The position numbers and the translations under genes are program-made. From Solimonas aquatica (GTDB lineage Bacteria > Pseudomonadota > Gammaproteobacteria > Nevskiales > Nevskiaceae): a stretch of DNA of 64,000 nucleotides. The notes beneath the pieces were generated by a model. That model was given only the letters and a program-made list of their open reading frames with translations, was not told the DNA's origin and searched no databases. The DNA is taken from assembly GCF_900111015.1 (NCBI RefSeq), contig NZ_FOFS01000007.1, positions 62,001 to 126,000 of the forward strand, given 5' to 3'. Below, in pieces: positions 31,601-50,897 of the stretch (position 1 is its first letter; each line of letters begins with the position of its first letter).

Positions 31601-33020
31601 GTTCCAGTAGTAACAAGCGGAATTTCGGGGTGGAGCCGTTGACGGCGCGAAAGCTCAGTTCGCGAAGCAGACTGCGCAGGGCCGCATCGGAGGCGCGTGC
31701 GTAGTCCACCAGCACCAGCGTGGGTCGCTGCCACTGCCACTGGCTACCTGATTGCAGGGTGGCGAGGCGCTGCAGATCGTCATGCAGCAGTACCCCGGCT
31801 TGCCAGCGCTCGCCGTATTCACGCGCCAAGCGCCAGATCAGCTCGTAGCCAAGTCGGGTTTTGCCGGCGCCCGCATCGCCCACTAGCAGGCGCACGGCGA
31901 TACTTCTATCGCTGTGCAGCCACCCCCACAGGCTGCGCATTTCTGCTTCGCGTCCGAGCAGAGGTAGCGAGCGGTATTTCGCCTGAATGATCCACAAGTC
32001 ACCCTGCTCAGCACTGGCCGGCGGTGGCGGCAGAGCGGCGAAGCGATACAGCGGTAGGCCGAACAACTGTTGTTGCAGCGCGCCGAAAGCTTGGGTGACC
32101 GCGCGTACTGCGGCACTCAAGTCATCGCCCAACTGCGGCAGCGCGATCACCGCCGCAAGCAGAGTCGCCATCTGCTGCTTGAGCTCGTCCTGGCCATAGC
32201 GAATGTCGCGCAGCGTCTGCGCCTGCTGCTCTAGACGCACGAGCAGCTCGCTGTGTTGCGTGCCGATGCGTTCGAGCAGTTGATCCGCATCGGCCTGCAG
32301 GTTGCCTAGCATGTCCGCGACGAAGCTGCGAAATACCTCCGGCCGCTCCTTCAAATATTCACGCAGGCACAAGCAATAGGCCTGCTCCAGGGTGATGGTC
32401 TGGTTGCAGGCAGGGCTGGGCAGCCAGCCGCCGCGTAGCGGCTCCGCGATGAAATCGGGCAGCGTGCCGCCGCCGAGTTGCCGCGCTATCCACTGTTCCA
32501 GCGCAGGGAGAAGCACAGGGGTGAGTGAGCAACGCGCGCCAGCGATGCAGGCGATCAGATCCCGCGCCTCGTAACGGAGGTCATCGAACCACTGCTCCCA
32601 CTGCGGCGATTTGACTGCCCGCTCCAGATCGCGCAGTTGATTGAGATCGGGCCGCTCCATGGCGGCGATTAATGGCTCGCGCCACAGGCGCCCTTCGCGT
32701 ACGAACTGGCCGATCGCCGAAAACAGGGGCAGGCGCGGGTCGCGTTGCTGCGCGATGCGATATAGCATCGCCAGCAACGCAGTGCGTAGCGCATCGCGGC
32801 TCGCGCTGAGCAGGGGGTGATTGCGCGGCAGCTGGGTCTGGGGATCAAGTGTATCGCCAACCGTCGAGCCGATCCGCCGTGCAGCGTTCTTTACGCCATC
32901 AGTGAGAAGATTTCCGAGCGCGTTGGCGACGACGTCTTCTGCGCTAGGCATCGCATCGCCCACGGCTTTCACAACGGCACCACCCAGCAAGGTAAACGCG
33001 ACAGAAACGGGGTCGATCAT
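28659..33020 (-). CDS. NLR-like STAND NTPase with a TPR array
   Basis: 1453 aa. Residues 1-90 start with a hydrophobic, Gly/Ala-rich stretch (AFTLLGGAVVKAVGDAM) that may be an effector or membrane segment; 90-330 are helical. The NTPase has Walker A VGDAGAGKT (380-388) and Walker B TLVLVDYARA (about 433-442), followed by helical regions. From about residue 805 come twelve 46-aa tetratricopeptide units, consensus YTPALASSLNNLA then LSEAGQRREALA, QEAT, LHRALAEQNADA. This ATPase-plus-repeat layout is that of bacterial antiviral STAND (Avs/NLR) sensors, the TPRs being the likely ligand-binding part. No partner gene is adjacent, so it would be self-contained. Confidence 0.85.
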   Translation of the reverse strand: MIDPVSVAFTLLGGAVVKAVGDAMPSAEDVVANALGNLLTDGVKNAARRIGSTVGDTLDPQTQLPRNHPLLSASRDALRTALLAMLYRIAQQRDPRLPLFSAIGQFVREGRLWREPLIAAMERPDLNQLRDLERAVKSPQWEQWFDDLRYEARDLIACIAGARCSLTPVLLPALEQWIARQLGGGTLPDFIAEPLRGGWLPSPACNQTITLEQAYCLCLREYLKERPEVFRSFVADMLGNLQADADQLLERIGTQHSELLVRLEQQAQTLRDIRYGQDELKQQMATLLAAVIALPQLGDDLSAAVRAVTQAFGALQQQLFGLPLYRFAALPPPPASAEQGDLWIIQAKYRSLPLLGREAEMRSLWGWLHSDRSIAVRLLVGDAGAGKTRLGYELIWRLAREYGERWQAGVLLHDDLQRLATLQSGSQWQWQRPTLVLVDYARASDAALRSLLRELSFRAVNGSTPKFRLLLLERRLTGTKDWLDELGSVVHRGGHAARSLFDPPEPLPLPLFTDLELRRRLFSGTLAAIHSSVRTPEAGERPDFDALLNHRDWSAPLLPMMAALVTQQRGHLLASHGLHRSDLGAALARGERERLLRFAHIDQAHPAQADAFSTLLSVIAAWVVLRGGADRDTALAIANAESEARALNFPGGNGVLIDALLKAWTGGPNQIAALQPDIVAEAFVVLFLGNPQQAGDTATRLLARVHDREHSAVHLILLACQNFQSFPEVPMAFKALSAWVKEIAEAACQQGDAQLLSTLAYELPKRSLEFSAVAKTVAVLCVDIQRLRVEMSLERSETELYELAGQLFWLAVHLNALGQRREALAPAQEATDLCRALAEQNANAYTPALASSLNNLASFLSEAGLRREALASAQKAVILNRELVARDAHAYRPTLASSLNNLASFLSEVGQRREALAPAQEATDLSRALVAQNAEAYTPALAMSLHNLANRLSEVGRRREALASAQEAVTLRRALVAQNADAYKPALASSLNNLAGFLSETGQQSEALIPAQEATDLYRTLAEQNADAYTPALASSLDNLASFLSEAGRWKEALALAREATNLHRALAEQNADAYTPALASSLSNLANRLSEAGQRCEALALAREATSLHRALATQNADAYAPALASSLSNLANRLSGVGQRREALALALEATNLHRALAEQNADAYRPALASSLNNLSSFLSAVGQPLKALASAQEAVMLRRVLVGKNADAYTPALAMSLNTFANQLRAANREDEAQEPAREATELCRALVAQNADVYRPILISTLNTLAILLSEAGQWCEALALAREAVDESRVLAEQNADAYTPVLAGSLNTLANRLNESEQRSEALALSREATDLRRALAEQNADVYMPSLANSLGTTAAIYACLSDFNSARDCLREALDKLSSLFLQLPEAHGMSVLRLFLGYLRACNYSGTAPDSALLKPLIEPLRALPDILVPVDIVQAVKGQEPD
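28960..30600 (-). repeat. 138-bp coding tandem repeats (TPR array)
   Basis: About twelve in-frame copies with a 138-bp period; for example the GTACGCGTCGGCGTT block recurs near 29657 and 29795. Several neighbouring units are nearly identical in DNA while others have drifted, which indicates recent expansion or gene conversion inside the receptor part of the STAND protein. Confidence 0.88.
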
Positions 33021-33282: not shown

Positions 33283-34152
33283 ATGCCAAAGCCGCCGCAT
33301 TCTGAACGCGGGAAAAACAGGAAGGCCGCCAATCTTGGCGTTGATCGTGATACTTCAATGTCAGCCGTTTCACTCGGCGTCACAGGGAGCACCATTAGTT
33401 CTGATATTTCCTGCAAAACGGATTTTAGAAAATTCGACCATCCTTTGTGGGGCATCGCAGCGGTGCCATGTATGTTCTTGTGTTTTTCAACATACTCGCC
33501 GCAAGCAACACGGGAATATGCGCTTGCAGCGTGGGCAATATCGTCTGTCATCGCGTTGAAACGCAGCGAATGGGGGCGAACCACTCCAAAGCCATACCGA
33601 AAAATCTTCTTTGTGTGCTTTGTATTTTTCGGGTTTCTACTTGCGGTGATGAAGGGCTATGACTATTGGAATAGGCCCCTGCTTTTGGTGCATGCCTATG
33701 ATTTTAAGCGGTGGGACATACCCATGATAGAAAACGATGATGATGATCAGCAGTTAAAAGACTATTTAAAGCAAGTATACGTGAAAGAGAACATACATCA
33801 GATTATTGCCAATCAGCATAATGAACGGATTATCAATTTAGCATTCGATAATGCAGGGCAATCGACTCTTAATCACGTATCCATTGATACCATAGCATTC
33901 GATGCGAATAGTAAGCCATTCGCCATCGTCCCGGTTACGACGGGCTGTGCCTTGGACACTTATAAAGAGATTAATGTGCAAGTTGACTGCTACCGAGAGC
34001 GAATCGAACCCTACAAAAAAACTGCCTCTGAAATGCTCATTTCAATTCGGGTGAACACAGCCGAAAAAATACAACTCATGTTGGTGACGACAGTCAACGC
34101 TGACAACGGTTTTCACAAAAGATTTGATTCATTTTGGGTTATTAACCCGTGA
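33283..34152 (+). CDS. hypothetical membrane protein, AT-rich gene
   Basis: 289 aa, no family recognised. The N-terminal 60 residues are polar, then two or three transmembrane helices (PLWGIAAVPCMFLCFSTY, IFFVCFVFFGFLLAVM), then a soluble domain of about 170 residues (WDIPMIENDDDDQQLKDYL, INLAFDNAGQSTLNHVSIDT) probably outside the membrane. Codon use is clearly more AT-rich than the neighbours, a sign of separate acquisition. GAGG lies 8 nt before the ATG. It faces away from the STAND gene. Confidence 0.65.
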   Translation: MPKPPHSERGKNRKAANLGVDRDTSMSAVSLGVTGSTISSDISCKTDFRKFDHPLWGIAAVPCMFLCFSTYSPQATREYALAAWAISSVIALKRSEWGRTTPKPYRKIFFVCFVFFGFLLAVMKGYDYWNRPLLLVHAYDFKRWDIPMIENDDDDQQLKDYLKQVYVKENIHQIIANQHNERIINLAFDNAGQSTLNHVSIDTIAFDANSKPFAIVPVTTGCALDTYKEINVQVDCYRERIEPYKKTASEMLISIRVNTAEKIQLMLVTTVNADNGFHKRFDSFWVINP

Positions 34153-34476: not shown

Positions 34477-35670
34477 TCAAGCCGCCGCCTGCTCCGCCGC
34501 GCCAATCGCTGCACTGACCTGATCTGCTACCAGCTGCGAGGCCTTGCGCAGGGTCTCATCGGCCAGATGTGCGTAGCGCTGGGTCATCTGCGCGCTGGAG
34601 TGCCCGAGCAGGTTCTGGACTGTGAACAGCGGCACACCGGCGTTGACGGCGAGGCTGGCGAAGCTGTGCCGCAGGTCATGGATGCGCACATGCTCGGAAA
34701 TCCCCGCCGCCGCCAGAACGCGCGTGAAGGCCTTGCGTGGATTGTTCAGCGGCTTGGCCGGATCGCGGCCCGGGAACACCCACACCGACGTACCGCGGCT
34801 CGCCTGCGCGCTCAGGAGCGCCTTGGCAGAGTCGTTGAGCGCTACCATGCGCACGCGGCCGTTCTTGGTGCGGGGCAGGCGCCAGCTGCTGTTGTCCAGG
34901 TCGACGTCCTCCCACTTCGCCTGCAAGGCCTCCTCGCGACGCACGCCGGTGAGCAGCAGCAGCTTCAATGCCGCCACCGCGGTGCGATTGGGCTCGCTGG
35001 CCATCGCCGCGAACAGGCGGCTGACCTCCTCCTGGCTCAGGAAGCGCGTGCGGCCCGCGTTCTCCTTGAACTGCTTGATGCCCAGGCAGGGATTGCGATC
35101 CACCACCTCCCAGTGCAGCGCCTGGCGGAAGATCGCCGAGAGCAGGGCCAGATGCCGGTTCGCCGTGGAGGGGCTGCGCAGGGTCCGGATCTCCGCGCGG
35201 TAGAGTTCGATCTCGTGGCGCGTGATGCTGTCCAGGCGACGCGACTTGAACCGCGGCAACACGTGCAAGTCGAGCTTGGAGCGATCACTGCCCACGCTCC
35301 GCTTTTCGGTGGTGGCCCAGGGCAGGTACTGCTCCTCCACGAACTCCCCGAAGGTCGGCGTGGCGCGGATGCGCTCGCGCTCGGCCTGCGGATCGATGCC
35401 GCGATCCACGTCGGCGCGCAGCGCCAGCGCCCGCTGCCGGGCCTCGGCCACCTCGATGCCGGGGAAGGTGCCAATGCGCACGTAACCAGCGCGACCGTCC
35501 CGCTTGTAGCGAAAGCCGAAGGTCTTGGTGCCGGTCTTGCCGACGACCATCTTCAGCCCGGTTACGACGGTGTCGGAATACTCGTCCGAGCGCGCCGCCG
35601 AGCTCTCCAGGCAGTTCGGCAGCGCTTTGATCGTCCGGTTGTTGAAGTTGAGTTTCTTGTTGTCACGCAT
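34477..35670 (-). CDS. int: tyrosine-type site-specific integrase
   Basis: 397 aa. An N-terminal arm-binding domain (VVGKTGTKTFGFRYKRDGRA, YVRIGTFPG) is followed by an SAM-like core-binding domain (TFGEFVEEQYLPWA) and the catalytic domain with Arg in LLLTGVRREEAL, Lys region RTKNGRVRM, H-x-x-R in HDLRHSFASLAV, His in NLLGHSSAQM and Tyr in TQRYAHL. All catalytic residues are present, so it should be active. It most likely inserts and excises the element at tRNA-Phe. MRDNKKL is chosen as start; longer frames have no family match. Confidence 0.94.
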   Translation of the reverse strand: MRDNKKLNFNNRTIKALPNCLESSAARSDEYSDTVVTGLKMVVGKTGTKTFGFRYKRDGRAGYVRIGTFPGIEVAEARQRALALRADVDRGIDPQAERERIRATPTFGEFVEEQYLPWATTEKRSVGSDRSKLDLHVLPRFKSRRLDSITRHEIELYRAEIRTLRSPSTANRHLALLSAIFRQALHWEVVDRNPCLGIKQFKENAGRTRFLSQEEVSRLFAAMASEPNRTAVAALKLLLLTGVRREEALQAKWEDVDLDNSSWRLPRTKNGRVRMVALNDSAKALLSAQASRGTSVWVFPGRDPAKPLNNPRKAFTRVLAAAGISEHVRIHDLRHSFASLAVNAGVPLFTVQNLLGHSSAQMTQRYAHLADETLRKASQLVADQVSAAIGAAEQAAA

Positions 35671-36048
35671 GACGCCGCCTCCATCTTGTGGCGCAGAAAT
35701 GGAAAGCCGCGCACCGGTGCAGCACCGGGCGCGGCCATGAGGTGGGCACGAATGCGACCCGATGAGCTGTTTCGAGGGGAGCCGCTTTTGCGAGAAAAGC
35801 CCGCCGAGGCGCAGGGACGTGAGGGGGAGGGGATCAGCGGGAAGCGGCAAAGGTCCAGGCGGCTGATGCCACCGGCGAGGTCAGCGCGGTTCTGCACAAT
35901 CCCTTGAACTCGCCGGCCGGCGAGGGCGGGGCAGGCCGCGCATCACCAGCACCCACAAGCACCATGCGAAACCGGCGGCGCCGTGCGCACAAAACCGTCC
36001 GAAAGCACCGGCGTGATGCCGGCACTTTCCAGCCCGCGGTTTCGCGCC
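35671..36048. other. non-coding region upstream of int
   Basis: 378 bp with no gene supported. It includes an imperfect hairpin (about 36000-36030, CCGGC/GCCGG core) that could end transcription of the small-gene operon to its right, and must contain the int promoter; no clear -10/-35 pair was identified. Confidence 0.5.
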
Positions 36049-38004: not shown

Positions 38005-38940
38005 TTACGCCTTGACGGCGGTGCTTACCGCCGGATTTTGACACTCGTCCTCCATTCTCCGCTGGCGTACTCGCCGAAGGTGATCTAGTAATTCCTCTCT
38101 TGAACACTTACTCACTTCGAAGTGGCGGCGCGCTTCCTCAAGCAGAGCGCCGATTTCAGGCCCGCGAGCGACTCCAAGATCGTCGACGATGTCTCTACCC
38201 GTGATCGGTAGAACGACGCTGTCCTCGTGCAGGAGTGTCTTCTCGATCAGGCGCAAAGCCTCGAAACTGAAATCGAAGCCATCCTCGAGCAGGTCGAGGT
38301 GCTTTCGCCATTGGTCGACGTGTCTGTTCCGGAAGGCGACAGTATTCAATGCCTCCCGAGCGAGTCGATACTTCGCGTCGTCGATCAGTGAGTCGAAGGC
38401 CGCCGCTGGCCGGTCACGGCTTAGGCGTCGGAGCCATTCGTCAACGTGTTGTTGGGCGGCGGCACCATCGGACTCGATCCGGCGGACAACCTCATCTAGG
38501 CCGCCGAGGAAGACCCGTGCGTTGCCAACGAGGCCCTGATAGCAGTCCAGCCACTGCTGATCGGTGCGAGGAAGTGCTGTCCCACACGACTTGCGTCGCC
38601 AAGACTCTGCCGCCGTTCGCGCGGCCTGATCAGAGTCGGCAAACCCTAGGTTGTGGTGGAGCTCAGTTCTCAGACATCGAACGATCTCAACGTGCTGGTC
38701 TGACTCCTCTCGATTCACAAGCGCGTAGGCTTCGCCGAGGCGTCGCAGGAAGGTGATGCTGACTCGCCCTGCCTCAAAGTAGAGGCAGTAGAGCCACGAT
38801 GTCGCTCGAATGAAGGCCGGCTCAGCCCTCCCTGGATCGGGAAGTAGAACGTGCAGTTCATCAAACGCGGGCCGCCCGATGAGGCTCCGTGCCAGGGCGT
38901 TTGTACCCTGATAACTGCGGAGGACGTCCTCGAAGCTCAT
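38005..38940 (-). CDS. partner of the SIR2-like STAND protein; CCA-enzyme-like tail
   Basis: 311 aa, mostly helical. The last 60 residues (LPITGRDIVDDLGVARGPEI, GALLEEARRHFEVS, CSREELLDHLR) closely resemble the C-terminal RNA-binding part of CCA-adding enzymes and poly(A) polymerases (PLTGxDL...GxxPGPxIGxLL...SREE). The N-terminal two thirds show no nucleotidyltransferase motif. It overlaps the 1143-aa gene by 4 bp, so the two are made together. The tail suggests RNA or tRNA recognition; the rest is unknown. Confidence 0.7.
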   Translation of the reverse strand: MSFEDVLRSYQGTNALARSLIGRPAFDELHVLLPDPGRAEPAFIRATSWLYCLYFEAGRVSITFLRRLGEAYALVNREESDQHVEIVRCLRTELHHNLGFADSDQAARTAAESWRRKSCGTALPRTDQQWLDCYQGLVGNARVFLGGLDEVVRRIESDGAAAQQHVDEWLRRLSRDRPAAAFDSLIDDAKYRLAREALNTVAFRNRHVDQWRKHLDLLEDGFDFSFEALRLIEKTLLHEDSVVLPITGRDIVDDLGVARGPEIGALLEEARRHFEVSKCSREELLDHLRRVRQRRMEDECQNPAVSTAVKA

Positions 38941-41900
38941 AGGCCAGCTCGCGCTCGCCCAGGGGGCTCAGCCACCGGTCCAATGAAGTTGAACGCGACG
39001 TAGAAGCCGCCGGTCACCCCGGCACCTCGCCGCAGGTTGACGCCTGGGAAGTCACGCTGAAGCAGCTCCACTTCTTGGCGGAGCTCATCGACCTGAACGC
39101 GCGCCCGGCCGCGTCCCCCATCGTCTGTCGTGACGCGTCCGTGGAACATTCGGGGACGGCCTCCCTCTGTCCAGACGTGATGGCGCACGACTCGCCGGGG
39201 GTCGCTAAAGGCGGTCTCCTGGCTCAGGGAACGCCAGAGGTCGCGGGCCGCATTCTCACGCTGAAGTCTCCACATGATCACCGCGCGAAGGTACTGCGTC
39301 CGCGGATCTCTGAGGGCGCCCTCGAGCCCACCAAGGGTGTCAAGAACATCAAGGATCTCCTGAAGGTCTGTCTCTCGTTCCGGAAGAGGACATCGCTCAC
39401 CTCCGAACAGGAATCCGTTCGTCGCGAGCAGCCACAGCCCTCGCAGGAGATAGCGCAGGCAGCGCGCATCGTCCTTGATCTGCGCCCGATGATCCCGGAG
39501 GAACGAGATCATGCGCTCAGCTTTGGATGTGTCCTCTGAGGTCGCCTTGCCGAGACCTAACAGTGGGCCGCCTATCGCGCGGGCTCGAAGAAACACGCCT
39601 GCGGCCGATCCCATTCGGTCGAGGGACTCCAACGCTTCCTGTTCGAGGCGGTTGTCGTCAAGGGTCCGAGCGACCTTGACGCGGCGCTCTTCGAATCTCT
39701 CTTGCTGCTCGAGGTCTAGCTGGCTCGGGTCAACCCTTTCCAAGCCATCCCAGATGTCCGCGACCAACTCGGCGCGTTTCTCCGGATCCCAGTTGCCGTC
39801 GCGTAGCAAGTCGCTCGGGACCCAAACGCTCACATCGATCGCGTAGTAGGAATCCGCAGCGAATACCGCAGCGCGAAAGGAGGTCCGCGCCGCTTGGTAG
39901 AACTGCCACACCTCGTCGGGGTTTGCCCCTGACTTGAGGCGCTGCACCGCCCTGAATCCGTAGATCGCCGCGCGCTCTACTTTGAGATTAGCGCACGCGC
40001 GACGTAGGCCCTGGCCCGTTTGGACCCCGAACTCATCCAGCGCTAGGTCCACCACCTGCCGCGCTTCCTCGAGTACTGCTGCGGGATCGAGGCCTGGTAT
40101 CGCAGGCGCATCCCGGAAAACACGCCGGCGAAGGGTTGCCTCTTGCAACATCAGGCTCGGGTCTGCAACGCCTCGCCTCGTCCGAATCTCCGTTAGAGCC
40201 CGCGCGATGTCGAGGTAGCTGCTTGCGTATCGCTGCCCGAATGGGCCATCCGGTCCAAGCCTGTGTACAAGATCTAGGACAAACCTGCGCTCGCAACTTC
40301 CGTATTCACTCGGGCTCGCGCTCGTGAGCAGCCGAAGTGCGACGGCCGCTTCTGCCTGAGATGTTCCGAGACGCCTCGCCGAGATCATTTCAGCTTCTAC
40401 CCTGAGCCTCGGGTGCACGAATACGTCATCCTCCTCGTTTGAGCTCCATCGGAAGAGGTCGATGCCCGAGAAGAGAGCGGCGATGTCGACCATGCTCTCG
40501 CTTCCGCCAACAGCACGCATGAGGAGATTCACCGGCACGGGACAGTCGAGCTTGCCGGGGACCATCACAAGGTCGATCGCCTTCGACGCCGCGTCACTCA
40601 TGCTGCCGAGGAATTCCTCGAGCTTCTGGTCCAGAAGTGCTTTCGGATCGATAAGTCCAGCGTTGACCAGGGCCTGCCCTAGCGCACCCGCTGGTCTGGC
40701 GGAGCCCTTGCTCGTTGTCGCCCCCCGGATGCGCAGATCGCCCTCGGCTACGCGCGCCTCTTGCGCCAGACCGGCTGCGAGGCGCGGACGCACGTCCGGG
40801 AGCATGCGATAGATAGCAGGGAGGAGATAAACGGACCCCGCAGCGTTCAGCACAGTCCCCGTTCGGGTTCGCACCAGCTCTGCCAGCGCTCGGACCTCGG
40901 CGATGTCGAGTTTGGCCGGCACCTCGAGGAGGTGACTAGGTGCAGACAGGCCGTCAACCGTGTTCTGGTCGACAATGCGATAAGCGCTGCCCACGACAAC
41001 AACGCGACGGCCGCGACTTACGAATCCGCGCAGAAGCTCGCTGTAGCGGGACGAGGGTGCGTTGGCATCACAGACGATCAGCGTTGCGGTTGCCCCAGCC
41101 TCCTCGGCGCGTTGGCAGAACTCGTCCAGTTCCTCGATAGCGGGCATGCGCGTTGTTCGGCTCGCCAAGAGAACAGCGCACTTGTTCTCTTCGCGGATCG
41201 TGTAGGCCAGGCGCGCAAGGGCAAGGCTCTTGCCTGAACCAGACTGCCCGTGGATCAGTATGGGTTCGTGCTTTCGACCGGCATCAAGGAGCGCCTTGCG
41301 CACGCGCTCGCCGAGTTCTCGTTCGAAGGTCCTCTCGATTGCGAAGCCCCGACGTATCCCCTCGACCAGGCGGCGAGCATCCTCGACTTGGCCATGGAAT
41401 CGGCGAAACTCGGCATATTCCGCGTCAGGCCCGAGCTGTGACAATGGCGCCACCCACGCGTCCTCAACGATCGCGGCGGCAGTCGAGATCTTGAGGCGGG
41501 TAGCTGGCTCAATTTCCAGAACCCGATCGTGAATGGTAACCGAGCCCTCGGTGGCAAAAGGACGGGCAGAAGAGGTGTCGATCTTGTGCGCAAGCTCGAG
41601 GGAGCGAACCGCCGCTGAGAGACGCTCTCGGACGAAGACGATTGGCCCCTTTGGACTCGCAAGGTCACGCAGAGCTGGTGAGTCGTCGGACGATTCTGGC
41701 GGCCAGCCGAACCAGTAGACTTGGCCCGGTCCGAAGGCGCTCAGGATCCCCGACAGGACGTCGGTGCCAAGCCAATCGCGCCCGCACGACAGCCCATCGA
41801 TGAGCAGTACGCCAAGCGACGTCGTCGTCTCAACGATGCGCGAGAGGAGAGGCGTAGCGTGCAGCGCTGTCCGCCGTCGGAGTTCTTGCGTGCTTCTTGG

Positions 41901-42368
41901 TGGGGCCTCGTTTGGGTTGCGCTCGCCTGCGCGCCCGAAGAGAAACGTGAGGTGGAGGTTTCGTCGATGGCGAGGAGCGGACGGATTGTCGAGGTTGCTG
42001 AGGACCGACTCGACATCTCGTCCGTTGACACGAAGAGCCCGGGCCAGTGCTGGATCGATAGCCGAAGTAAATACAGCATTTAGAGGAAGAAGTGAGATCG
42101 TCTCCAACCAAGGCTGTTCGGGTTGGTGGATATACGAGTCCGCGAGCCAATCATAGAAGTCATCTGGCACGGACTCCGCTTTGAGGAGCGAGGAGAGGTT
42201 GGCAGAATCTGCGTCTGCAGAGAGACGCCCCAACCTCTTGAAAGCGGCCTCAAGCACTGGGTCCTGACGGTTGCCGCTCCGCCAAGCATCCTGGCCGAGC
42301 AAGAGCACCAAGGGGCGACCTTCACTAAGCGCCAGGCGAAGGCCCTCAAGATGTTCAGTCGCGCTCAA
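38937..42368 (-). CDS. SIR2-like/P-loop STAND protein
   Basis: 1143 aa. Residues about 18-222 have the layout of SIR2_2 domains: PLVLLLGQDAWRSG, LLPLNAVFTSAIDPALARAL, LHLTFLFG, then SLGVLLIDGLSCGRDWLG, but the usual G-A-G-x-S and T-T-N-Y-D residues are changed, so NADase activity is uncertain. The NTPase follows with Walker A HGQSGSGKS (373-381) and a Walker B-like TLIVCDANA. The C-terminal 500 residues are helical. Such effector-ATPase-sensor proteins (SIR2-STAND) are abortive-infection systems. Start is TTG at 42368 after GAGGG; weakly supported. Coupled to the 311-aa partner by ATGA. Confidence 0.75.
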   Translation of the reverse strand: MSATEHLEGLRLALSEGRPLVLLLGQDAWRSGNRQDPVLEAAFKRLGRLSADADSANLSSLLKAESVPDDFYDWLADSYIHQPEQPWLETISLLPLNAVFTSAIDPALARALRVNGRDVESVLSNLDNPSAPRHRRNLHLTFLFGRAGERNPNEAPPRSTQELRRRTALHATPLLSRIVETTTSLGVLLIDGLSCGRDWLGTDVLSGILSAFGPGQVYWFGWPPESSDDSPALRDLASPKGPIVFVRERLSAAVRSLELAHKIDTSSARPFATEGSVTIHDRVLEIEPATRLKISTAAAIVEDAWVAPLSQLGPDAEYAEFRRFHGQVEDARRLVEGIRRGFAIERTFERELGERVRKALLDAGRKHEPILIHGQSGSGKSLALARLAYTIREENKCAVLLASRTTRMPAIEELDEFCQRAEEAGATATLIVCDANAPSSRYSELLRGFVSRGRRVVVVGSAYRIVDQNTVDGLSAPSHLLEVPAKLDIAEVRALAELVRTRTGTVLNAAGSVYLLPAIYRMLPDVRPRLAAGLAQEARVAEGDLRIRGATTSKGSARPAGALGQALVNAGLIDPKALLDQKLEEFLGSMSDAASKAIDLVMVPGKLDCPVPVNLLMRAVGGSESMVDIAALFSGIDLFRWSSNEEDDVFVHPRLRVEAEMISARRLGTSQAEAAVALRLLTSASPSEYGSCERRFVLDLVHRLGPDGPFGQRYASSYLDIARALTEIRTRRGVADPSLMLQEATLRRRVFRDAPAIPGLDPAAVLEEARQVVDLALDEFGVQTGQGLRRACANLKVERAAIYGFRAVQRLKSGANPDEVWQFYQAARTSFRAAVFAADSYYAIDVSVWVPSDLLRDGNWDPEKRAELVADIWDGLERVDPSQLDLEQQERFEERRVKVARTLDDNRLEQEALESLDRMGSAAGVFLRARAIGGPLLGLGKATSEDTSKAERMISFLRDHRAQIKDDARCLRYLLRGLWLLATNGFLFGGERCPLPERETDLQEILDVLDTLGGLEGALRDPRTQYLRAVIMWRLQRENAARDLWRSLSQETAFSDPRRVVRHHVWTEGGRPRMFHGRVTTDDGGRGRARVQVDELRQEVELLQRDFPGVNLRRGAGVTGGFYVAFNFIGPVAEPPGRARAGL

Positions 42369-42900
42369 CGGAGCCAGCCCTCATGGGAGGGCGTTAGGCG
42401 CCTCATGGCAATCTCGATCATTGGTCATCCCGTCGTTGGAGAGTTATGCATTCGGCAACACCCTGTGATCGCCGTCCCAAGTCAGCTCTTAGTATTTGCA
42501 GTCATCCGACATTACCGATAAAGATCGCGCCATTTGACGAGCATTTCATTATTGGTCTCGGAGCAGTACCTGAGTTAGTCACTTCCGCCACTCCAAGAAC
42601 TTTGCCCCAAGGGGTTCCACTGGCGAGACTGACCTAACCCTGTCTCGCACAAGTCTAGCGACCACCGCCAGAAACATCAGCAAAGAAGGGGGACTTTCCT
42701 TCCGACCGTCCGCTTCGGGCTGACAGCAGACACCCATCGCCAGCCCTCACGCTACCAACCACCATTGACCGACTGAGACGTCAGTCAAATTTCGACGCGC
42801 CAGCGCGTACAAAAGGAAGCCCCGGCAGCTCGTGAGAGCTGCCGGGGCCTATCTGCAGCAAGGGCCGTGGCCTAGAGACTCATCGCGAGCAATGGCCTGA
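42369..42900. other. 532-bp intergenic region with a terminator
   Basis: No gene supported. At 42811-42848 a perfect 13-bp stem (GCCCCGGCAGCTC/GAGCTGCCGGGGC) with minus-strand T-rich flank TTCCTTTT ends the four-gene envelope operon. The remainder should hold the promoter of the SIR2-like gene; none was clearly identified. Confidence 0.65.
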
Positions 42901-43554
42901 CTATTCCTTGACTCTCTTCAAAATCTTGTAAACGCCGTAACCAACAGCGGCGGCAGCCGCTGCGGGTGCGGCCGCGGTGATCGCAGCGCCGGCAGCCATT
43001 CCACCTCCCACCGTGCCACCGATGGCAGCAAGCCCGGAGGCAATGCCCGCGGCGGACAGACCGGCCACCGAGCCTGCAGCACTCACCGCACTGCCGGCGG
43101 TTCTGGCGGCGGCGCTGACATACGTAGACTTGCGCCCAGCCAACCAGTCCTCACCTTCGTTACCTGCCAGCGCAGGAGGATCGGCGAACACCGTCTTCCC
43201 GATCAGCGAGGCCATGTCGACGCCCGAGGACGCGCCCGACTCGCCGGTGATACACCACTCGCAGAATTGCTCGCCGTTGTTGTTGAGCAGGTCGAAGTTA
43301 TCCTCGCCCAATCTCGATCGCGCCCGCGACACAATTTCCTCGGGCGAAAAGCGCGCGTCGTCGTGCGCTTTCACCCAGTAGCCCGCGCCCGCTCGAAACG
43401 CATCCAGGGACGTTTCTTCCATCGACCCGGATACCACGCCATCTTCATTTCCAGAATAGTGCACGACGCGATCGTCGCCCACGTAAATGCCATGGTGCGT
43501 GTACAGCAACCGCCATGACAGAAGATGCGACCCCACCGCTATGTGCTCGCCCAT
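42901..43554 (-). CDS. LRAT-like (NlpC/P60 superfamily) protein
   Basis: 217 aa. The N-terminal domain matches lecithin-retinol acyltransferase-like proteins: His in LLYTHHGIYVGDDRVVHYSG, then SRARSRLGEDNFDLL and NNGEQFCEWCITG. In active relatives this last motif is N-C-E-H-F; here the Cys nucleophile is Gly and the His is Gln, although a Cys lies four residues on. The C-terminal 90 residues are Ala/Gly-rich and hydrophobic (TAGSAVSAAGSVAGLSAAGI, GGTVGGGMAAGAAITAAAPA), probably membrane-embedded. GGAG precedes the ATG. It is the last gene of the operon. Confidence 0.8.
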   Translation of the reverse strand: MGEHIAVGSHLLSWRLLYTHHGIYVGDDRVVHYSGNEDGVVSGSMEETSLDAFRAGAGYWVKAHDDARFSPEEIVSRARSRLGEDNFDLLNNNGEQFCEWCITGESGASSGVDMASLIGKTVFADPPALAGNEGEDWLAGRKSTYVSAAARTAGSAVSAAGSVAGLSAAGIASGLAAIGGTVGGGMAAGAAITAAAPAAAAAAVGYGVYKILKRVKE

Positions 43555-43580
43555 GTCAGTCTCCGTGTAAAAAACTACGC

Positions 43581-44285
43581 CTAACCGTTCCTGTATTCCC
43601 AAATGAAGCGCAGCCCCCACTTGGCGAGGATGAAGATCACCGCCAGGATGCTGCCGAAGAAGGCGAGGCCCGGGCCGAAGCGGTAGCGCAGCAGGGCCAG
43701 GTCCGTGAGGTCGTGCGGCAGACCGTCCTTGGCGTGCTGGCCATGCAGCGTCTTCTCGATCTGCTCCAGGTCGCCTTTGTTCTTGAGCAGGGTCATCCAG
43801 TAGGCCGCCAGCCCGATCAGGGCCAGGATGCCCCAGCCCGCGCCCGAGACGGCAAAGGTCATGAGCGTGGCCAGCGGCGCGACCAGCTTGCCGATCTTCA
43901 CGATCTGCGGCTGCGCATCAAACGCCCGATCCAGGCGAGGCGCGTGGTAGACGCGCGGGTGGTTGTCGGTGCCTGTCGCCAAGCTGGCGCCGGGCATGGC
44001 GCTTGACGCGGACCAGCCGGCATCCGCCGGCGTGGCGGCGACCGCCACGGGCGGGGGTGCCACCGGCAGCGGCGGCGGCTGTCCTGCAGCACGCACCTCC
44101 TTCTTGGGCGGTACCAGGCCCTCGACCGTGGCAGCCGGCACCCAGTCCGTCATGCCCTCTGCCCAGACCAGATCGGACGCGCTGACCTGACCGTCTGCCA
44201 GCTTCTGCCGCAGCTCTTCTTCCGTGTGCGGTCCGAACCGCTCACTGCCCTTGGCATGCCACCATGCGTGCTCTCCCGCCATCAT
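43581..44285 (-). CDS. GYF_2-domain membrane protein
   Basis: 234 aa. An N-terminal GYF_2 domain (AWWHAKGSERFGPHTEEELRQ, ASDLVWAEGMTDWVPA) is followed by a Pro-rich linker (PPPLPVAPPPVAV) and two to three transmembrane helices near 130-165 and 205-225. GYF_2 domains bind proline-rich partners in the cytoplasm. It sits between the lipoprotein and the LRAT-like gene with gaps of 39 and 26 bp, so the products may assemble at the envelope. Confidence 0.83.
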   Translation of the reverse strand: MMAGEHAWWHAKGSERFGPHTEEELRQKLADGQVSASDLVWAEGMTDWVPAATVEGLVPPKKEVRAAGQPPPLPVAPPPVAVAATPADAGWSASSAMPGASLATGTDNHPRVYHAPRLDRAFDAQPQIVKIGKLVAPLATLMTFAVSGAGWGILALIGLAAYWMTLLKNKGDLEQIEKTLHGQHAKDGLPHDLTDLALLRYRFGPGLAFFGSILAVIFILAKWGLRFIWEYRNG

Positions 44286-44324
44286 CTACCCCCGTTGTGC
44301 TGGATTGACTGCCATGACTGAGCT

Positions 44325-45179
44325 TCACCTGACCTTGCGGTAGCGGCCTTCCGGGAAGCATTTGTTGCTGCCCTCGACATCAATGTGGGCGTGGCCGGGC
44401 CCGAAGCTGATCGCGTAGCTGCCATCCGGTGCCGAGAGCGATCCCGAAGCACCGTCGTACTTCGGCTTGAAGGTCTGGTTCGCGCACAGGCTCGAACGCA
44501 GTTCGTCGCCACCATGGGGGCCTTCGTCGTCGGTGATGGTCGTCTTGTCGTTGCTGTAGGTGCCGTACGAAGAACCCTCGTCCGCCGGCGCGGCCGGTGC
44601 CGCAGGCGGGGGCGTCGCCTTGGCGACCTTCGCATTGGACTGTGCGTAGTAGACGACGTAGTCGATGATCGGGTTGGCGGCCTGCAGGTTGACGATCACA
44701 TCCTTGCCGTCGGAGGTGCGCTGCGCGTCGTACTCGATGTTCCAGGCGACGGTACTCGGCCCCGCGATCGTGGGCATGCTCTCGCGCAGCGCGGCCAGCC
44801 GCTCGGCGCGCCCGTTGCCCGTGCCGTAGATTGCGTCCAACCGACGTTCCAGCTCGATGAGCATGCCGCTGGACGCGATGTTCTTGGCGACGGTTTCCGG
44901 CTTCATCGTGGCGCCGGTGACGTTCGCGGTCAGCAGCCCCGAGCACTGCAGGGCGCCCGATTCATTGCGGCTGCGCTCCGTCGTCTGGCTCAGCGCAATG
45001 TGCCCGCCGCCGGCAAACAGCGCCAACACGGCCTCTGGCGTGGCCTGTTTGGCGGCGTTGTCCGCCACGAGCCCCTCCAGCGTTTCCGCCACGACCTTGT
45101 CGTGGCACTGGAGCTTGGAGCCGCAGCCGGCCACCGCCAGGGCGGCAGCGGCCGCTGCCAATGTTTTTAGCGTTTTCAT
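44325..45179 (-). CDS. hypothetical lipoprotein
   Basis: 284 aa with a clear lipoprotein signal (AAAAALAVAGC, lipobox VAGC). The mature part has an N-terminal cysteine pair (KLQCHDK, GALQCSG), a middle domain (VIVNLQAANPIIDYVVYY), a Pro/Ala linker and a C-terminal region with two more cysteines (SSLCANQTF, NKCFPEGRYRK). GGAGGT lies 5 nt before the ATG. No named family recognised. Second gene of the operon that starts with the DUF1232 protein. Confidence 0.8.
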   Translation of the reverse strand: MKTLKTLAAAAAALAVAGCGSKLQCHDKVVAETLEGLVADNAAKQATPEAVLALFAGGGHIALSQTTERSRNESGALQCSGLLTANVTGATMKPETVAKNIASSGMLIELERRLDAIYGTGNGRAERLAALRESMPTIAGPSTVAWNIEYDAQRTSDGKDVIVNLQAANPIIDYVVYYAQSNAKVAKATPPPAAPAAPADEGSSYGTYSNDKTTITDDEGPHGGDELRSSLCANQTFKPKYDGASGSLSAPDGSYAISFGPGHAHIDVEGSNKCFPEGRYRKVR

Positions 45180-45203
45180 GGGTACCTCCGAGGTGAGGAG
45201 CGA

Positions 45204-45596
45204 TCAGGCCCGCGCCCGCTTCCAGGCCGCGTACTTCGCCAGGTCCTCACCCACCAGCCTCAGGCAGAGGCCGACCACCATCGCGTCGTCCATGTAGCCG
45301 ACGACCGGGATGAAGTCGGGGATCAGGTCCACCGGGCTGAGCACGTAGGCCAAGGCACCGACGATGGCCGCGATGCTCGCCCAAGGGACCTCGCGGTAGC
45401 TGCCGTTGGCGTAGTCGCGGATCAGCGAAAACATCAGCTTCACGTCATTCAGCAGCTTGCCCAAGGGCCCGCTGCCCGACACGATCTTTTCGATCTTCGC
45501 CTGCTTGCCGAGGATCTTCTCCATGTCCTCGGGCTTCACCTTGCCCGCAGACCGCTTCAGGTGTTCCCGTGCATCGTCTTCGGTGACTTCCGTCAT
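45204..45596 (-). CDS. DUF1232 (YkvA-like) membrane protein
   Basis: 130 aa. The DUF1232 core is plain: IAAIVGALAYVLSPVDLIPD then FIPVVGYMDDAMVVGLCLRL. The first 60 residues are charged (VTEDDAREHLKRSAGKVKPE). Function of DUF1232 is unknown; members are inner-membrane proteins. It is the first gene of a four-gene operon (gaps 24, 39, 26 bp) and lies divergent from an XRE regulator with an 18-bp palindrome between them. Confidence 0.88.
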   Translation of the reverse strand: MTEVTEDDAREHLKRSAGKVKPEDMEKILGKQAKIEKIVSGSGPLGKLLNDVKLMFSLIRDYANGSYREVPWASIAAIVGALAYVLSPVDLIPDFIPVVGYMDDAMVVGLCLRLVGEDLAKYAAWKRARA

Positions 45597-45737
45597 TGCC
45601 TTTTCCCCTTTGTGAGTTGCCGGTGGTGGCCGATCGCAGCCGGCGTCTCGCCGCTGCGCGCGCGAATTTTTTCCCCGTGCGCGGTGCCGCGCTTATCTCC
45701 CATCAGACAAGCAGGCCTACCAGACTATACCTATTAA

Positions 45738-45755
45738 TTCACAATATATTGTGAA
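45738..45755. promoter_or_regulatory. perfect 18-bp palindrome operator
   Basis: TTCACAATATATTGTGAA, a perfect inverted repeat in an unusually AT-rich spot between the divergent DUF1232 operon and the XRE gene. It is the likely binding site of the XRE protein and could control both directions; the nearby TATACCTATTAATTC also offers promoter-like boxes. Confidence 0.75.
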
Positions 45756-45806
45756 GACAGTCAAGCACCTCGCACCTACGGTTCCCCCTCGACCGGGAGG
45801 GCGTCA

Positions 45807-46103
45807 GTGCAGGGAGTGGCGGACAAGGCGTTTGGCGAGGTACTGCGCGAATTACGCCTGGAGAAAGGGCTGTCGCAGGAGCAGCTGGCCCTCGATGCCG
45901 ATCTCCAGCGCAACTACGTGTCCCTGCTGGAGCGGGGCCTCAATTCCGCGACGCTGAAGACGGTCTTCAAGATTGCTCCCGTGCTCGGGATCAAAGCGTC
46001 GGCAATGCTGCAGCTCGTCGAGGAAAAGGCCGGCAAGAGCAGCAGGGGACCCGCCAAACGCCCCCGTCGCGTCACACGCAAGCCATCAACGGCTAAAGCC
46101 TGA
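45807..46103 (+). CDS. XRE-family transcriptional regulator
   Basis: 98 aa. Helix-turn-helix: FGEVLRELRLEKGLSQEQLA, LDADLQRNYVSLLERGLNSA, TLKTVFKIAPVLG. The tail is basic (KRPRRVTRKPSTAKA). GTG start at 45807 after GGGAGG (6 nt). It most likely binds the 18-bp palindrome 52 bp upstream, repressing itself and the divergent envelope operon. Confidence 0.9.
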   Translation: MQGVADKAFGEVLRELRLEKGLSQEQLALDADLQRNYVSLLERGLNSATLKTVFKIAPVLGIKASAMLQLVEEKAGKSSRGPAKRPRRVTRKPSTAKA

Positions 46104-46216: not shown

Positions 46217-48814
46217 TCACCCGTCGACGACGATGCGGCGGACATCGAAGTCGGGAAACTGCGCGCTCACCACCTGCAGGAAGCGGTGCACGTCGGCGGT
46301 GTTCGGCGCGGAGTGTTCGACGATCGATGCGCGCGAGGCATTCTTCAGCTCTACGAGCGTCGTCGGGTAGCCGGCCGCCGTCAGCCACGCCGCCACGGCG
46401 GAGTAGGGCATTGCGCGTTCGGGGTCGACCTGCTTCTGTGCGTACAGGCGCAGAAAGGTCCGGCGCGCCACGCCCACCGCGCCCTCCCGCGTCAGGTTGA
46501 TGCTCGTGCTGCCGCTGCGGCGATGTCTGGACGCGACCCTGCGAAACTGCAGTACACCGGACCAGTGCGCGTAGTCGTCGAGCGTCTTGAGGCAGCGTTC
46601 CCGGCGCCAGCCATCGAACTGCGCGCGCGCCTGCTCCATCTCCTCGCGGGTGCCCCAGGGCCCGGTGTCGAACGCCAGGTGCTCGACGCCCCGGACGGCC
46701 TGCACGCCCGGTGACAGGGGCCGACGCTTCATGTCGTACTCAAGGTTGAGTCGGACCTGCAGCGTTCGGCGCACGAGGTCGAAGTCGTGCACCCACTGGT
46801 CGCGCAGCGACGCGAACGAGCTCTGCTGCGTCAGGCTATCGGGCGTGCGTCCCAGGAAGAGATCGACCATGTAGTCGTTCCGTTCGGGCTTGGGCACGGG
46901 CGGCGACACGGACGTCATGGCCAGCACGATCGGGTGCCCTTCCAAGGGTATCGACGTGGCTTGGCCGCGCGTTTTCATGGAAATGATCTGTCGGGCGCCG
47001 TGCTTGCGCTCCAGCATGGGCAGGCCCGGCGCCACCCGCTCGGACAATTCGCGGAAGCGCGACGTCGCCGCGCCGCTCGTGTCCAGCGCCTCGATCGGCG
47101 CGTCGGTGATGAAGCCGTCTGTGGTAACGCTGATCGCTTGGCGGTCCGGCCCCAGCCCGGCCAGCAGTTCGCCCATCACGGCACGCACGAAGCCGGTGGC
47201 ATGCGCCGCGAAGGCGGCGTGCGTGACCGCGCTGCGGGGAACGGCGTCCGATCCCATCCGGCGCGTGTTGAAGGCCCGCTTCTCGCGCAGGCCCTGCGCC
47301 GTCTTGCCGTACAGGCTGTTGCCGACGAGCTTGAAGTAGGCCTCGCGCAGCGAGCCCTTCACCTCCGCGCGCCGCAGCCGGGCGATCCGGGAGACGAACG
47401 GCTCGAAGAACCGCCGGTCGTCGTCGGCGATCCAAGGAAAGATCACGCCATCGCGCACCTTGACCTCACAGCCCATGCTCAGCGCCAGCGCGATCTCCGG
47501 CGCGGAGCAGGCGGTCTCGCCGACGAGCGTGAAGACGAGACCGCGCTCGGTCCGGATCGGCAGGCACGGAAAGCGGGTGCCGGGCGGGAAGGCGAATGTC
47601 ACCCAGGCGAAGCCCATGATGCGCCCGACGAAGTCGGACGGGTCGGTGGTCCGCCGGACCCGCGCGTAGTCGATGGGGCTCAGATCAAGCAGCGCGGTGG
47701 TGTACGCGCCGCGCAGGTCGTAGTCAAACCACTCGCGGACCGGCGTCGGGCCGAAGCAGAAGGACTCATTGCGCCCGCCGTGGTAGGCATCGACGATCAG
47801 GTTTTCGGCGTAGCGGAGTTCCTGGCGAGGCAGCGCCACGCGCTGGGTCCTCACTTTGCCTTTGCGATCGTCCCAGTACGCCCTCTTGGCGACGCCAAGC
47901 CCCCAGAGCTCCTGGAAGTCGAAGCCGGCGTCGTGGAGGGCCGACTTGAGCGTCGCAACTGCCAGCGCGCTCACGGTGGCCGGCACTTCCGATCGCTTGG
48001 TCAGCAGCTCGGCGGTCGGCTTCAGGCCCAGGTAATACTTGGCCGCGATCTCCGCGTCGCGCAGACCGTAGGCTTCGAAGGCGCCCGGATCACGATCGCG
48101 AAGCTCATGCATTCGCTCGATGCTGAAGCCTTCTGGAATTTTCAGTTTTGGCAACTGCAGCCACTCGCCGACCTGCGCCAGCGACGTGCCCGGCGCGGTG
48201 TGGCGCGCGAGATCGACCAGGCGGATGGACAGCAACCTCGACAGCTCGTTCTCCATGCCGGTGACCGCGGACACGGAGCTCTTGTAGTGCGCGACGCCGG
48301 CCTCCATCGCCACCTCGAAGTCGGCATTCCTGCCGGTGGTCGCGACGCTCCCGCCGACGCCATCGAACTTGCGTTTGAACTCGTCGATATCGCCGAAGCT
48401 GGTCAAGTCGGCGCGCGTGAAGTAGCCGCACAGCACCACCTCCCGCGGCCATTCGAGGACCACCTTGCTCTTGATCGCATCCCCGATCAGCAGGGTCAGC
48501 TCGTCGACGAGCCCGGGCCGTTGCGAGCGCTTCTCTCCGGTCGGATAGACAACACGCGATGCCTCACCACACTCACCGATCAGGTAAAACTGCACGCTCA
48601 GCACCACGTTGCGGGTCGCGTCCTTGGGGTCCGGGCGCCACTCCGAGTCGACGCCCACCACGATGCTCGGCCCCAGGCCGGGCAGCGGCCCACCGCATTC
48701 AGCATCGAGGGCCTTGATCTCGTTATCGAGGATGCGGAGCTCTCGGTCGCACTCCACCTCGACCTCGATGATGTCGTCCAAGCTGAAGTCCCACGTGCGC
48801 TTCATGGCGCCCAT
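46217..48814 (-). CDS. B-family DNA polymerase of the element
   Basis: About 865 aa, with proofreading and polymerase domains. Exo I: GVDSEWRPD (Asp56, Glu58); Exo II-like: CGYFTRADLTSF; Exo III: YGLRDAEIAAKYY. Polymerase motif A: FDYDLRGAYTTAL (near 362); motif B: KLVGNSLYGKT (near 490); motif C: VTTDGFITD (near 560), which keeps the second catalytic Asp of D-T-D. Size and motifs fit protein-primed or primer-independent (piPolB) enzymes of selfish elements. Start at 48814 is chosen because AGAGGA lies 9 nt before it and a longer frame runs through a terminator. It should copy the excised element. Confidence 0.86.
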   Translation of the reverse strand: MGAMKRTWDFSLDDIIEVEVECDRELRILDNEIKALDAECGGPLPGLGPSIVVGVDSEWRPDPKDATRNVVLSVQFYLIGECGEASRVVYPTGEKRSQRPGLVDELTLLIGDAIKSKVVLEWPREVVLCGYFTRADLTSFGDIDEFKRKFDGVGGSVATTGRNADFEVAMEAGVAHYKSSVSAVTGMENELSRLLSIRLVDLARHTAPGTSLAQVGEWLQLPKLKIPEGFSIERMHELRDRDPGAFEAYGLRDAEIAAKYYLGLKPTAELLTKRSEVPATVSALAVATLKSALHDAGFDFQELWGLGVAKRAYWDDRKGKVRTQRVALPRQELRYAENLIVDAYHGGRNESFCFGPTPVREWFDYDLRGAYTTALLDLSPIDYARVRRTTDPSDFVGRIMGFAWVTFAFPPGTRFPCLPIRTERGLVFTLVGETACSAPEIALALSMGCEVKVRDGVIFPWIADDDRRFFEPFVSRIARLRRAEVKGSLREAYFKLVGNSLYGKTAQGLREKRAFNTRRMGSDAVPRSAVTHAAFAAHATGFVRAVMGELLAGLGPDRQAISVTTDGFITDAPIEALDTSGAATSRFRELSERVAPGLPMLERKHGARQIISMKTRGQATSIPLEGHPIVLAMTSVSPPVPKPERNDYMVDLFLGRTPDSLTQQSSFASLRDQWVHDFDLVRRTLQVRLNLEYDMKRRPLSPGVQAVRGVEHLAFDTGPWGTREEMEQARAQFDGWRRERCLKTLDDYAHWSGVLQFRRVASRHRRSGSTSINLTREGAVGVARRTFLRLYAQKQVDPERAMPYSAVAAWLTAAGYPTTLVELKNASRASIVEHSAPNTADVHRFLQVVSAQFPDFDVRRIVVDG

Positions 48815-48841
48815 GCGGAAGATTCCTCTGAAATTGGTGCC

Positions 48842-48880
48842 AGAAAGAAAAAGGGGTGACCGACGAAGTCGGTCACTCCC
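48842..48880 (-). terminator. intrinsic terminator between the 171-aa gene and the polymerase gene
   Basis: 12-bp stem (48853-48864 with 48868-48879, one G-U pair) followed on the minus strand by CCCCTTTTTCTTTC. It lies 34 bp after the 171-aa gene, so the polymerase would be read through or have its own promoter. Confidence 0.8.
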
Positions 48881-48913
48881 AATCAAACGCTTACCTCGTA
48901 AGCCTTTGGGGGC

Positions 48914-49500: not shown

Positions 49501-50577
49501 TTAGTCTTTTGTGTGGTCCTTTTTGGGGGGCTTAAATTTCGAACGCAAGTAATGTTTTCTCGCCTCAGGAAGCCAGGCCCATGACGAGAGCGAATCGTTC
49601 AGTCGCTCGCTTCTTGTGGGCATCAACGGCAACCGAAGGTCGACCACACCATTGGCTCGATCTCGCGCCATTAAAGCCGCAAGCGGCCGGTTCCACGTGA
49701 GATCACGAAACCTCGACGGTGATAGGACATGAGAGTTTGGGGGGAACAGGGGTGCTGTCAGATACAGGATGGTCTTGCGATCGCAGTGGCCAAAAATCCT
49801 TAGGCACAACTCAGCGATCTTAAAATATTGCGCATGCTCGACCTCCCATTTTGATTTTCGATCTCCATGCGTCACGACCTTTAGCAATGGATCTCCCGAG
49901 CTTTGCATTCGAAGCGCTACGCCTTCTGCCAACGCCTCAGAAGCGTCGGCCGTTTGTTCTATTCCGATTATCTCTTGATCGTTAAGGTGAAACTCGATAT
50001 TGAAAAGGTCTCGAGAATGAGTCAGAAAGGTTGTGAACTTACGCAGGGTTTCTTCCACCAGCCTAAAAGAGTTTTCCAACACTGTTGAGTTGAGAGAGGC
50101 AGTCTTTGCGTGGATGTGAATACTCAATAAACCACGGAAAAACCTGATGCGCCGCTCTACCCTGCGATACTGAGCGGCCTCGTCTCCGGCTTCGTTGTCC
50201 GCCAACTTTCTTTCAAGATGGTCGATTACTGATTCGATCCCAGTTTTCCCACCTCTAGCTAGAGCCTTGGAGAGGTAGCGGTGCCTTATCGAAGGAGGTG
50301 CGGGAGTTTCAAAGTACGGTTGCAGGGATGTCACAATGTTGGGCGGGTAGGCGACGCCCGGGTGTTTAAGTCGCTCCCGTGTGATCGAGCTGATAATCTC
50401 CCGATACTTGTCGAAATCCTTGACTAAATTCGGATCAGACTCGACCTGACGCGAAGGGCTTGTCCGAGCATTTGGAGTCCGTTTCTCGGTCGCATGCTGA
50501 GCCCCCTCCGTCAGTTTCTCGGCGGTAGATCTGTCTGACCCTTCACCCTTACCCTCGGTCGGTGTAATTTTCCGCAT
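49501..50577 (-). CDS. hypothetical protein at the right end of the element
   Basis: 358 aa, no family recognised. The first 60 residues are polar and disordered (TPTEGKGEGSDRSTAEKL), the rest helical (RRVERRIRFFRGLLSIHIHA, FRLVEETLRKFTTFLTH) ending in a basic tail (RSKFKPPKKDHTKD). Start MRKITPTE is chosen because GGGGGAA lies just before it. Codon use is a little more AT-rich than the chromosome. It is next to the tRNA-Phe att site, where excision or replication factors often lie. Confidence 0.65.
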   Translation of the reverse strand: MRKITPTEGKGEGSDRSTAEKLTEGAQHATEKRTPNARTSPSRQVESDPNLVKDFDKYREIISSITRERLKHPGVAYPPNIVTSLQPYFETPAPPSIRHRYLSKALARGGKTGIESVIDHLERKLADNEAGDEAAQYRRVERRIRFFRGLLSIHIHAKTASLNSTVLENSFRLVEETLRKFTTFLTHSRDLFNIEFHLNDQEIIGIEQTADASEALAEGVALRMQSSGDPLLKVVTHGDRKSKWEVEHAQYFKIAELCLRIFGHCDRKTILYLTAPLFPPNSHVLSPSRFRDLTWNRPLAALMARDRANGVVDLRLPLMPTRSERLNDSLSSWAWLPEARKHYLRSKFKPPKKDHTKD

Positions 50578-50753
50578 ACATTTCCCCCTGCCAACAAAGG
50601 TACACCAATCGCGAGGGTCTACATTCAATCAACCGCAAACCCGCGGGATTGGGCTTAGGGGTGGCTGTGGCGGTTTCATTTAGCCGGACGAGCACGCCCG
50701 CAGCTAAAAGCACCCGGCATTGTTACGGCGCGGGGACTAGAAACCTTCGGGCA

Positions 50754-50789: not shown

Positions 50790-50821
50790 TTGTCTGACAA
50801 CTGCTTACTCGACTTCGAGGA

Positions 50822-50897
50822 TGGTGGCCGGGGACGGAATCGAACCGCCGACACGGGGATTTTCAATCCCCTGCTCTACCGACTGAGCTACCCGGCC
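50822..50897 (-). tRNA. tRNA-Phe (GAA)
   Basis: 76 nt including encoded CCA. On the minus strand: acceptor GGCCGGG with CCCGGCC, D arm AGCTCAGTCGGTAGAGC, anticodon stem GGGGA with loop TTGAAAA (anticodon GAA), T loop TTCGATT. Bases 50821-50866 are the attR half of the element. Confidence 0.97.

Follow-up and report, generated by a model that had tools for sequence, protein, structure and literature searches.

The window, by which we mean the whole 64,000-nucleotide stretch of Solimonas aquatica DNA analysed here, carries four closely spaced genes on its minus strand, encoding a DUF1232 protein, a lipoprotein, a GYF_2 membrane protein and an LRAT-like protein in that order, and an XRE gene diverges from them:

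45807-46103, plus strand, XRE regulator, 98 aa (HTH_3, PF01381, E 2.3e-12)
45738-45755, no strand assigned, 18-bp perfect palindrome TTCACAATATATTGTGAA, probable XRE operator, exact
45204-45596, minus strand, DUF1232 (YkvA-type) small protein, 130 aa, operon gene 1 (Pfam PF06803, E 2.9e-15)
44325-45179, minus strand, lipoprotein, 284 aa, lipobox AVAGC ending at Cys19
43581-44285, minus strand, GYF_2 protein, 234 aa (Pfam PF14237, E 4.1e-16)
42901-43554, minus strand, LRAT/PLAAT-fold protein, 217 aa (Pfam PF04970, E 3.5e-21)
42817-42850, minus strand, strong intrinsic terminator 3' of the LRAT gene (15-pair hairpin stem, T-rich tail)

The four genes are separated by 24, 39 and 26 bp, and each start is preceded by a plausible ribosome site. 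The LRAT gene had at first been read from GTG 43620; we prefer ATG 43554 because a GGAG immediately precedes that codon, and with this start the product has 217 aa and the overlap with the GYF_2 gene disappears. In other respects the anatomy given by the sequence-only reading, with four tightly spaced genes, a divergent XRE gene and a palindrome between them, is exactly what we found, and the Pfam families agree with those it named. Its view that all four products point to the membrane was also supported, given the lipobox, the hydrophobic segments of the DUF1232 and GYF_2 proteins and the hydrophobic tail of the LRAT protein. A sigma-70 promoter scan of the operon region gave no match. The simplest reading of this arrangement, and a likely one, is that a single transcript would cover all four genes.

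The operon lies within a 22.5-kb island at a tRNA-Phe gene, delimited by a 46-bp exact repeat:

28323-28368, plus strand, far attachment site, repeat, a 46-bp exact copy of the tRNA-Phe 3' end
34477-35850, minus strand, tyrosine integrase of the island (PF00589, E 3.1e-35; phrog_1, E 1.4e-77)
38937-42368, minus strand, STAND NTPase (nSTAND_NTPase5), 1143 aa, candidate defence gene (PF25199, E 5.9e-9)
50821-50866, plus strand, near attachment site, 46-bp repeat at the tRNA-Phe 3' end (tRNA at 50822-50897, minus strand)

In genomes of the same genus, similarity to the window covers the tRNA side and ends at about 50821. Together with the tRNA-Phe repeat, this bears out the earlier proposal that the operon sits on a mobile element. 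When the joined flanks were used as a query for an empty site within the genus, the left flank had no match beyond its own genome, and the far boundary is placed by the repeat alone. There is good support for regarding the four genes as envelope cargo of a mobile island. An anti-phage role is known for STAND NTPases (PMC9122126), and the one listed above is not the only large gene of note in the neighbourhood. The island also encodes a TPR protein of 1453 aa that weakly matches a STAND NTPase (28659-33020, minus strand), and just outside the far attachment copy lies a gene for a P-loop protein of 755 aa that weakly matches LeoA (25960-28227, plus strand); the two are possibly tandem cargo. An 889-aa family-B DNA polymerase (DNA_pol_B_2; 46217-48886, minus strand) is likewise encoded on the island, and a search of 84 further genomes of the order gave no match to it. 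Two further island reading frames have no Pfam family (33283-34152, plus strand, and 49501-50628, minus strand) and lie in stretches of low GC, which is about 0.48 at 33-34 kb and 0.516 for the gene at 49501-50628.

The operon had also been called XRE-controlled, and this part of the sequence-only reading was not borne out. The palindrome between the XRE gene and the operon is indeed perfect, as had been reported, but its length is unremarkable, since about one palindrome of at least 18 bp is expected per 64 kb at the window composition. The genome contains a single instance of its 14-bp core. We consider the palindrome a probable operator because of where it lies and because it is conserved in front of XRE orthologs, and its length is not counted in this judgement. 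Orthologs with 68-69% and 59% identity carry the operator string (13 nt and 17 nt) approximately 50-60 bp upstream of their own start. The strings shared with the window upstream region, 17 nt at locus L069 and 13 nt at locus L068, exceed shuffle maxima of 12 and 11. However, the divergent neighbour of the XRE ortholog is a DUF6998 gene at L069 and another reading frame at L068, neither of them a gene of the operon. Because the divergent genes differ among orthologs that keep the half-site, the half-site fits autoregulation by the XRE protein first.

More distant XRE proteins of the order have GACTATAGTC...AATAGTC C-boxes, and the C-box consensus of restriction-modification (R-M) controller proteins is GACT-tat-AGTC (PMC4824078). 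The nearest solved structures to the window XRE are C.BclI (E 4.4e-10) and C.AhdI (E 2.5e-9), together with an R-M controller protein. Like the C proteins, the window XRE is small and has a palindrome, its putative operator, just 5' of its own gene. Unlike theirs, the palindrome is not a GACT-tat-AGTC C-box, and the operon has no restriction or methylase gene; no such family was found among the operon and flanking genes searched. Judged by its sequence relatives, the XRE is best seen as a controller-like autoregulatory protein. It comes close to an even chance that XRE and palindrome form a self-contained unit of the C-protein/C-box kind that does not govern the operon, as the orthologs with other divergent genes, the C-boxes of distant relatives and the nearest structures would suggest, and this would be compatible with any of the explanations of the operon discussed below. 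Nevertheless, the palindrome lies 142 bp before the DUF1232 start, in the only upstream region of that gene, where binding could affect a divergent promoter, and some C proteins do control a second gene (PMC4824078). Control of the operon by XRE is therefore plausible on positional grounds only. Elsewhere in the genome, a near-copy of the operator with one mismatch lies at C7:227925, shortly before an unrelated methyltransferase-like frame, and was taken as chance. The XRE protein also scored 42.6 bits against the Y4mF antitoxin model, below its cut-off of 71.65, which would be in keeping with a toxin-antitoxin or addiction module in which XRE is the antitoxin and the operon supplies the toxin. 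However, XRE is divergent and outside the operon, no known toxin family was found, and the sole enzyme fold lacks its nucleophile, so that we regard such a module as very improbable.

We searched for the gene set elsewhere with each operon gene as a seed, covering 85 genomes of the order, a sample of 369 genomes from the class, plasmids, phages and viral contigs; genome contigs were scanned once, with LRAT as the query, and loci from the whole-genome searches extend approximately 1.5 kb to each side. Of the 133 loci with a match, none outside the window holds two or more of the four genes, and a DUF1232 gene adjoins an XRE gene in two of the 133. The LRAT gene had no match elsewhere in the 85 genomes of the order. 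A literature search found no paper with DUF1232 and LRAT together, and PADLOC recognised no defence system among the four genes. The sequence-only reading had asked whether the four genes travel together in other elements, and had named scattered, unlinked genes as the outcome that would speak against it; scattered and unlinked is how they were found. For the collections searched, a conserved four-gene module is rejected. Two loci in which a GTPase adjoins LRAT, a dynamin-like one at L010 and a GTPase reading frame at L032, were considered as counterparts of the operon and set aside, since neither showed a sign of the other three genes.

The four genes might be a loose assembly of unrelated cargo, co-transcribed without a joint function, in which the LRAT gene is a decayed enzyme. 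The lack of linkage elsewhere is what such an assembly would produce. Codon usage agrees with it as well: GC3 is 0.71 for the LRAT gene versus 0.86-0.90 for the other three, and because of this lower value LRAT may have been acquired separately. On the other hand, the close spacing, the plausible ribosome sites and the common terminator argue against it, as do the intact LRAT frame and tail and a fold that is well predicted over residues 1-110. On balance we consider a loose assembly unlikely, and the changes in the LRAT motifs that would favour it are described below.

The DUF1232 protein has a single hydrophobic stretch (residues 70-96), and the C-terminal region of the GYF_2 protein is hydrophobic, with two to three membrane segments predicted, both by hydropathy. 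Relatives of the GYF_2 protein in the class are related at the level of the GYF_2 domain only. Relatives of the DUF1232 protein, full-length ones included, were seen in many unrelated chromosomal and plasmid contexts, and the full-length relatives were for that reason dropped as a pointer to a shared module. Both families are widespread, and neither had a defence link in the loci searched. This invites the suggestion that the operon is maintenance cargo, helping the island or its host with envelope stress or lipid imbalance and not directed at phages. The wide distribution of the DUF1232 and GYF_2 families as envelope proteins and the varied contexts of DUF1232 fit well, the GC3 of the first three genes falls among the values seen for most window genes beyond the island, and the predicted LRAT fold would suggest a lipid-related role. 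We nonetheless hold maintenance to be somewhat unlikely, as the operon is on an island amid STAND NTPases and relatives of two of its parts occur in prophage or defence contexts.

The first of these parts is the lipoprotein. No Pfam family matched it, a sequence comparison with the PDB gave no match, and a structure model with a pLDDT of 55 and no fold match was set aside. Its sole detected relative (32% identity) was the one match in the 85 genomes of the order; none was found in phages, plasmids, viral contigs or the sampled class genomes. The relative begins where an S24/CI-like repressor gene ends, inside a prophage that also encodes RecT and a DnaB-like helicase, the latter identified by eye. 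The site directly behind a CI-like repressor is a typical place for prophage genes expressed in the lysogen. Known superinfection-exclusion proteins include the Ltp lipoproteins of S. thermophilus phages (PMC3952083). The window lipoprotein resembles such prophage exclusion lipoproteins in being on a mobile element and in having a relative behind a CI-like repressor, and differs from them in sitting in a four-gene operon, the comparison here being one of gene context.

The second part is the LRAT-fold protein. By sequence it had no match in the PDB, but its model is confident for residues 1-110 (block means 76-98), and the best Foldseek matches of that model were the human phospholipase/acyltransferases HRASLS2/PLAAT3 (E 4.6e-6 to 2.4e-5, TM by target 0.76-0.80). 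LRAT/PLAAT enzymes have a triad containing Cys and His, with a catalytic Cys (PMC3142127). In the window protein the motif reads NNGEQF versus NNCEHF, and the position of the catalytic Cys is occupied by Gly94, at the start of helix 94-103 of the model. Changes affect not only the catalytic Cys but also the nearby His and the S-x-Q signature further downstream, all of which the homologs retain. In alignments, the Cys of the NCE/NCD motif was kept by every homolog readable at the motif, and a spaced-motif scan of the retrieved loci found non-Cys residues confined to copies of the window locus. The N-terminal His motif THHGIYVG is retained, with H20 and H21 invariant. Thus the protein shares PF04970, the PLAAT fold, the His motif and a hydrophobic C-terminal tail with the LRAT/PLAAT (HRASLS) permuted NlpC/P60 proteins, and differs from them in having Gly for the catalytic Cys and a Gly/Ala-rich tail module common to phage and defence loci. 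Because the catalytic Cys is absent, enzymatic activity is unlikely; in Tox-Act1, a relative of the LRAT/PLAAT fold, changing the His or the Cys abolished toxicity (PMC12994826). A Cys-less PLAAT domain poses the question of what role the fold has without catalysis. The closest LRAT relative, which has the same tail, follows a dynamin-family GTPase gene (L010, 75-3495).

The tail itself, approximately residues 146-217, is hydrophobic and Gly/Ala-rich, and the portion shared with other proteins comprises about 57 C-terminal residues. Over 58 aa it shares 69% identity with a stand-alone protein of 95 aa encoded in two P2-like phage contigs, and over 57 aa it shares 67% identity with a stand-alone protein of 82 aa whose gene is close to that of a XamI-type restriction enzyme. 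In the former (L167/L168, 3887-4174) the tail-module gene lies between portal/Ogr genes and a TIR gene; the latter is at L164, 1489-1737. In P2-like phages, anti-phage genes gather in a hotspot that lies between gpA and gpQ (PMC9122126), and the location of the stand-alone tail protein matches that hotspot. The window tail also resembles positions 310-382 of the profile of BnzA, a Bunzi protein (E 1.3e-3, and 1.1e-6 for the tail at L010), these being weak matches in a Gly/Ala-biased stretch.

Taking the island neighbourhood and the relatives of these two parts in prophage and defence contexts together, we tentatively favour, at somewhat below an even chance, the reading that the operon acts at the envelope to exclude, or defend against, phages or competing mobile elements. 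We suggest that the tRNA-Phe island carries the operon as accessory cargo, expressed as one transcript that would end at the terminator behind LRAT, and that the 18-bp operator most likely serves the divergent XRE for its own regulation, and possibly for that of the operon. The lipoprotein would be in the envelope, facing the periplasm or on the surface, with the DUF1232 and GYF_2 proteins in the inner membrane. The LRAT-fold protein would be held by its Gly/Ala-rich tail, which may be the membrane-active part. Because the fold and His motif are kept and the catalytic Cys is gone, the LRAT domain is more likely to bind lipid or a partner, as a sensor or adaptor of membrane state, than to be a phospholipase. 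Computation directly supports the operon anatomy, the island, the conserved operator, the lost Cys, the PLAAT fold and the shared tail, from which membrane topology, co-transcription, co-regulation, an anti-phage role and the division of labour among the proteins are inferred. If the operon does exclude phages or mobile elements, it adds an envelope-acting type of island defence.

A more specific version of this exclusion reading would make the operon a new envelope-exclusion system, in which the Cys-less PLAAT-fold protein bears the tail as a mobile effector module, the lipoprotein, GYF_2 and DUF1232 proteins provide the sensor and membrane scaffold, and the effector tail is common to LRAT-like proteins, stand-alone proteins of the P2-like hotspot and BnzA of Bunzi. 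As a joint claim we regard it as improbable. Bunzi pairs a TerB-domain protein with a partner (TerB is listed for it in PMC10952713), whereas Pfam gave no TerB match in any of the four window proteins, and apart from the tail segment the proteins are unrelated. The tail nevertheless offers a hydrophobic sequence handle of about 57 residues, recurrent in defence-type neighbourhoods, that is testable on its own. A similar hydrophobic tail was also seen at L137 and L138 (4992-5699), on an LRAT-like gene product with NCEHF intact, in what appears by eye to be a phage head-gene cluster.
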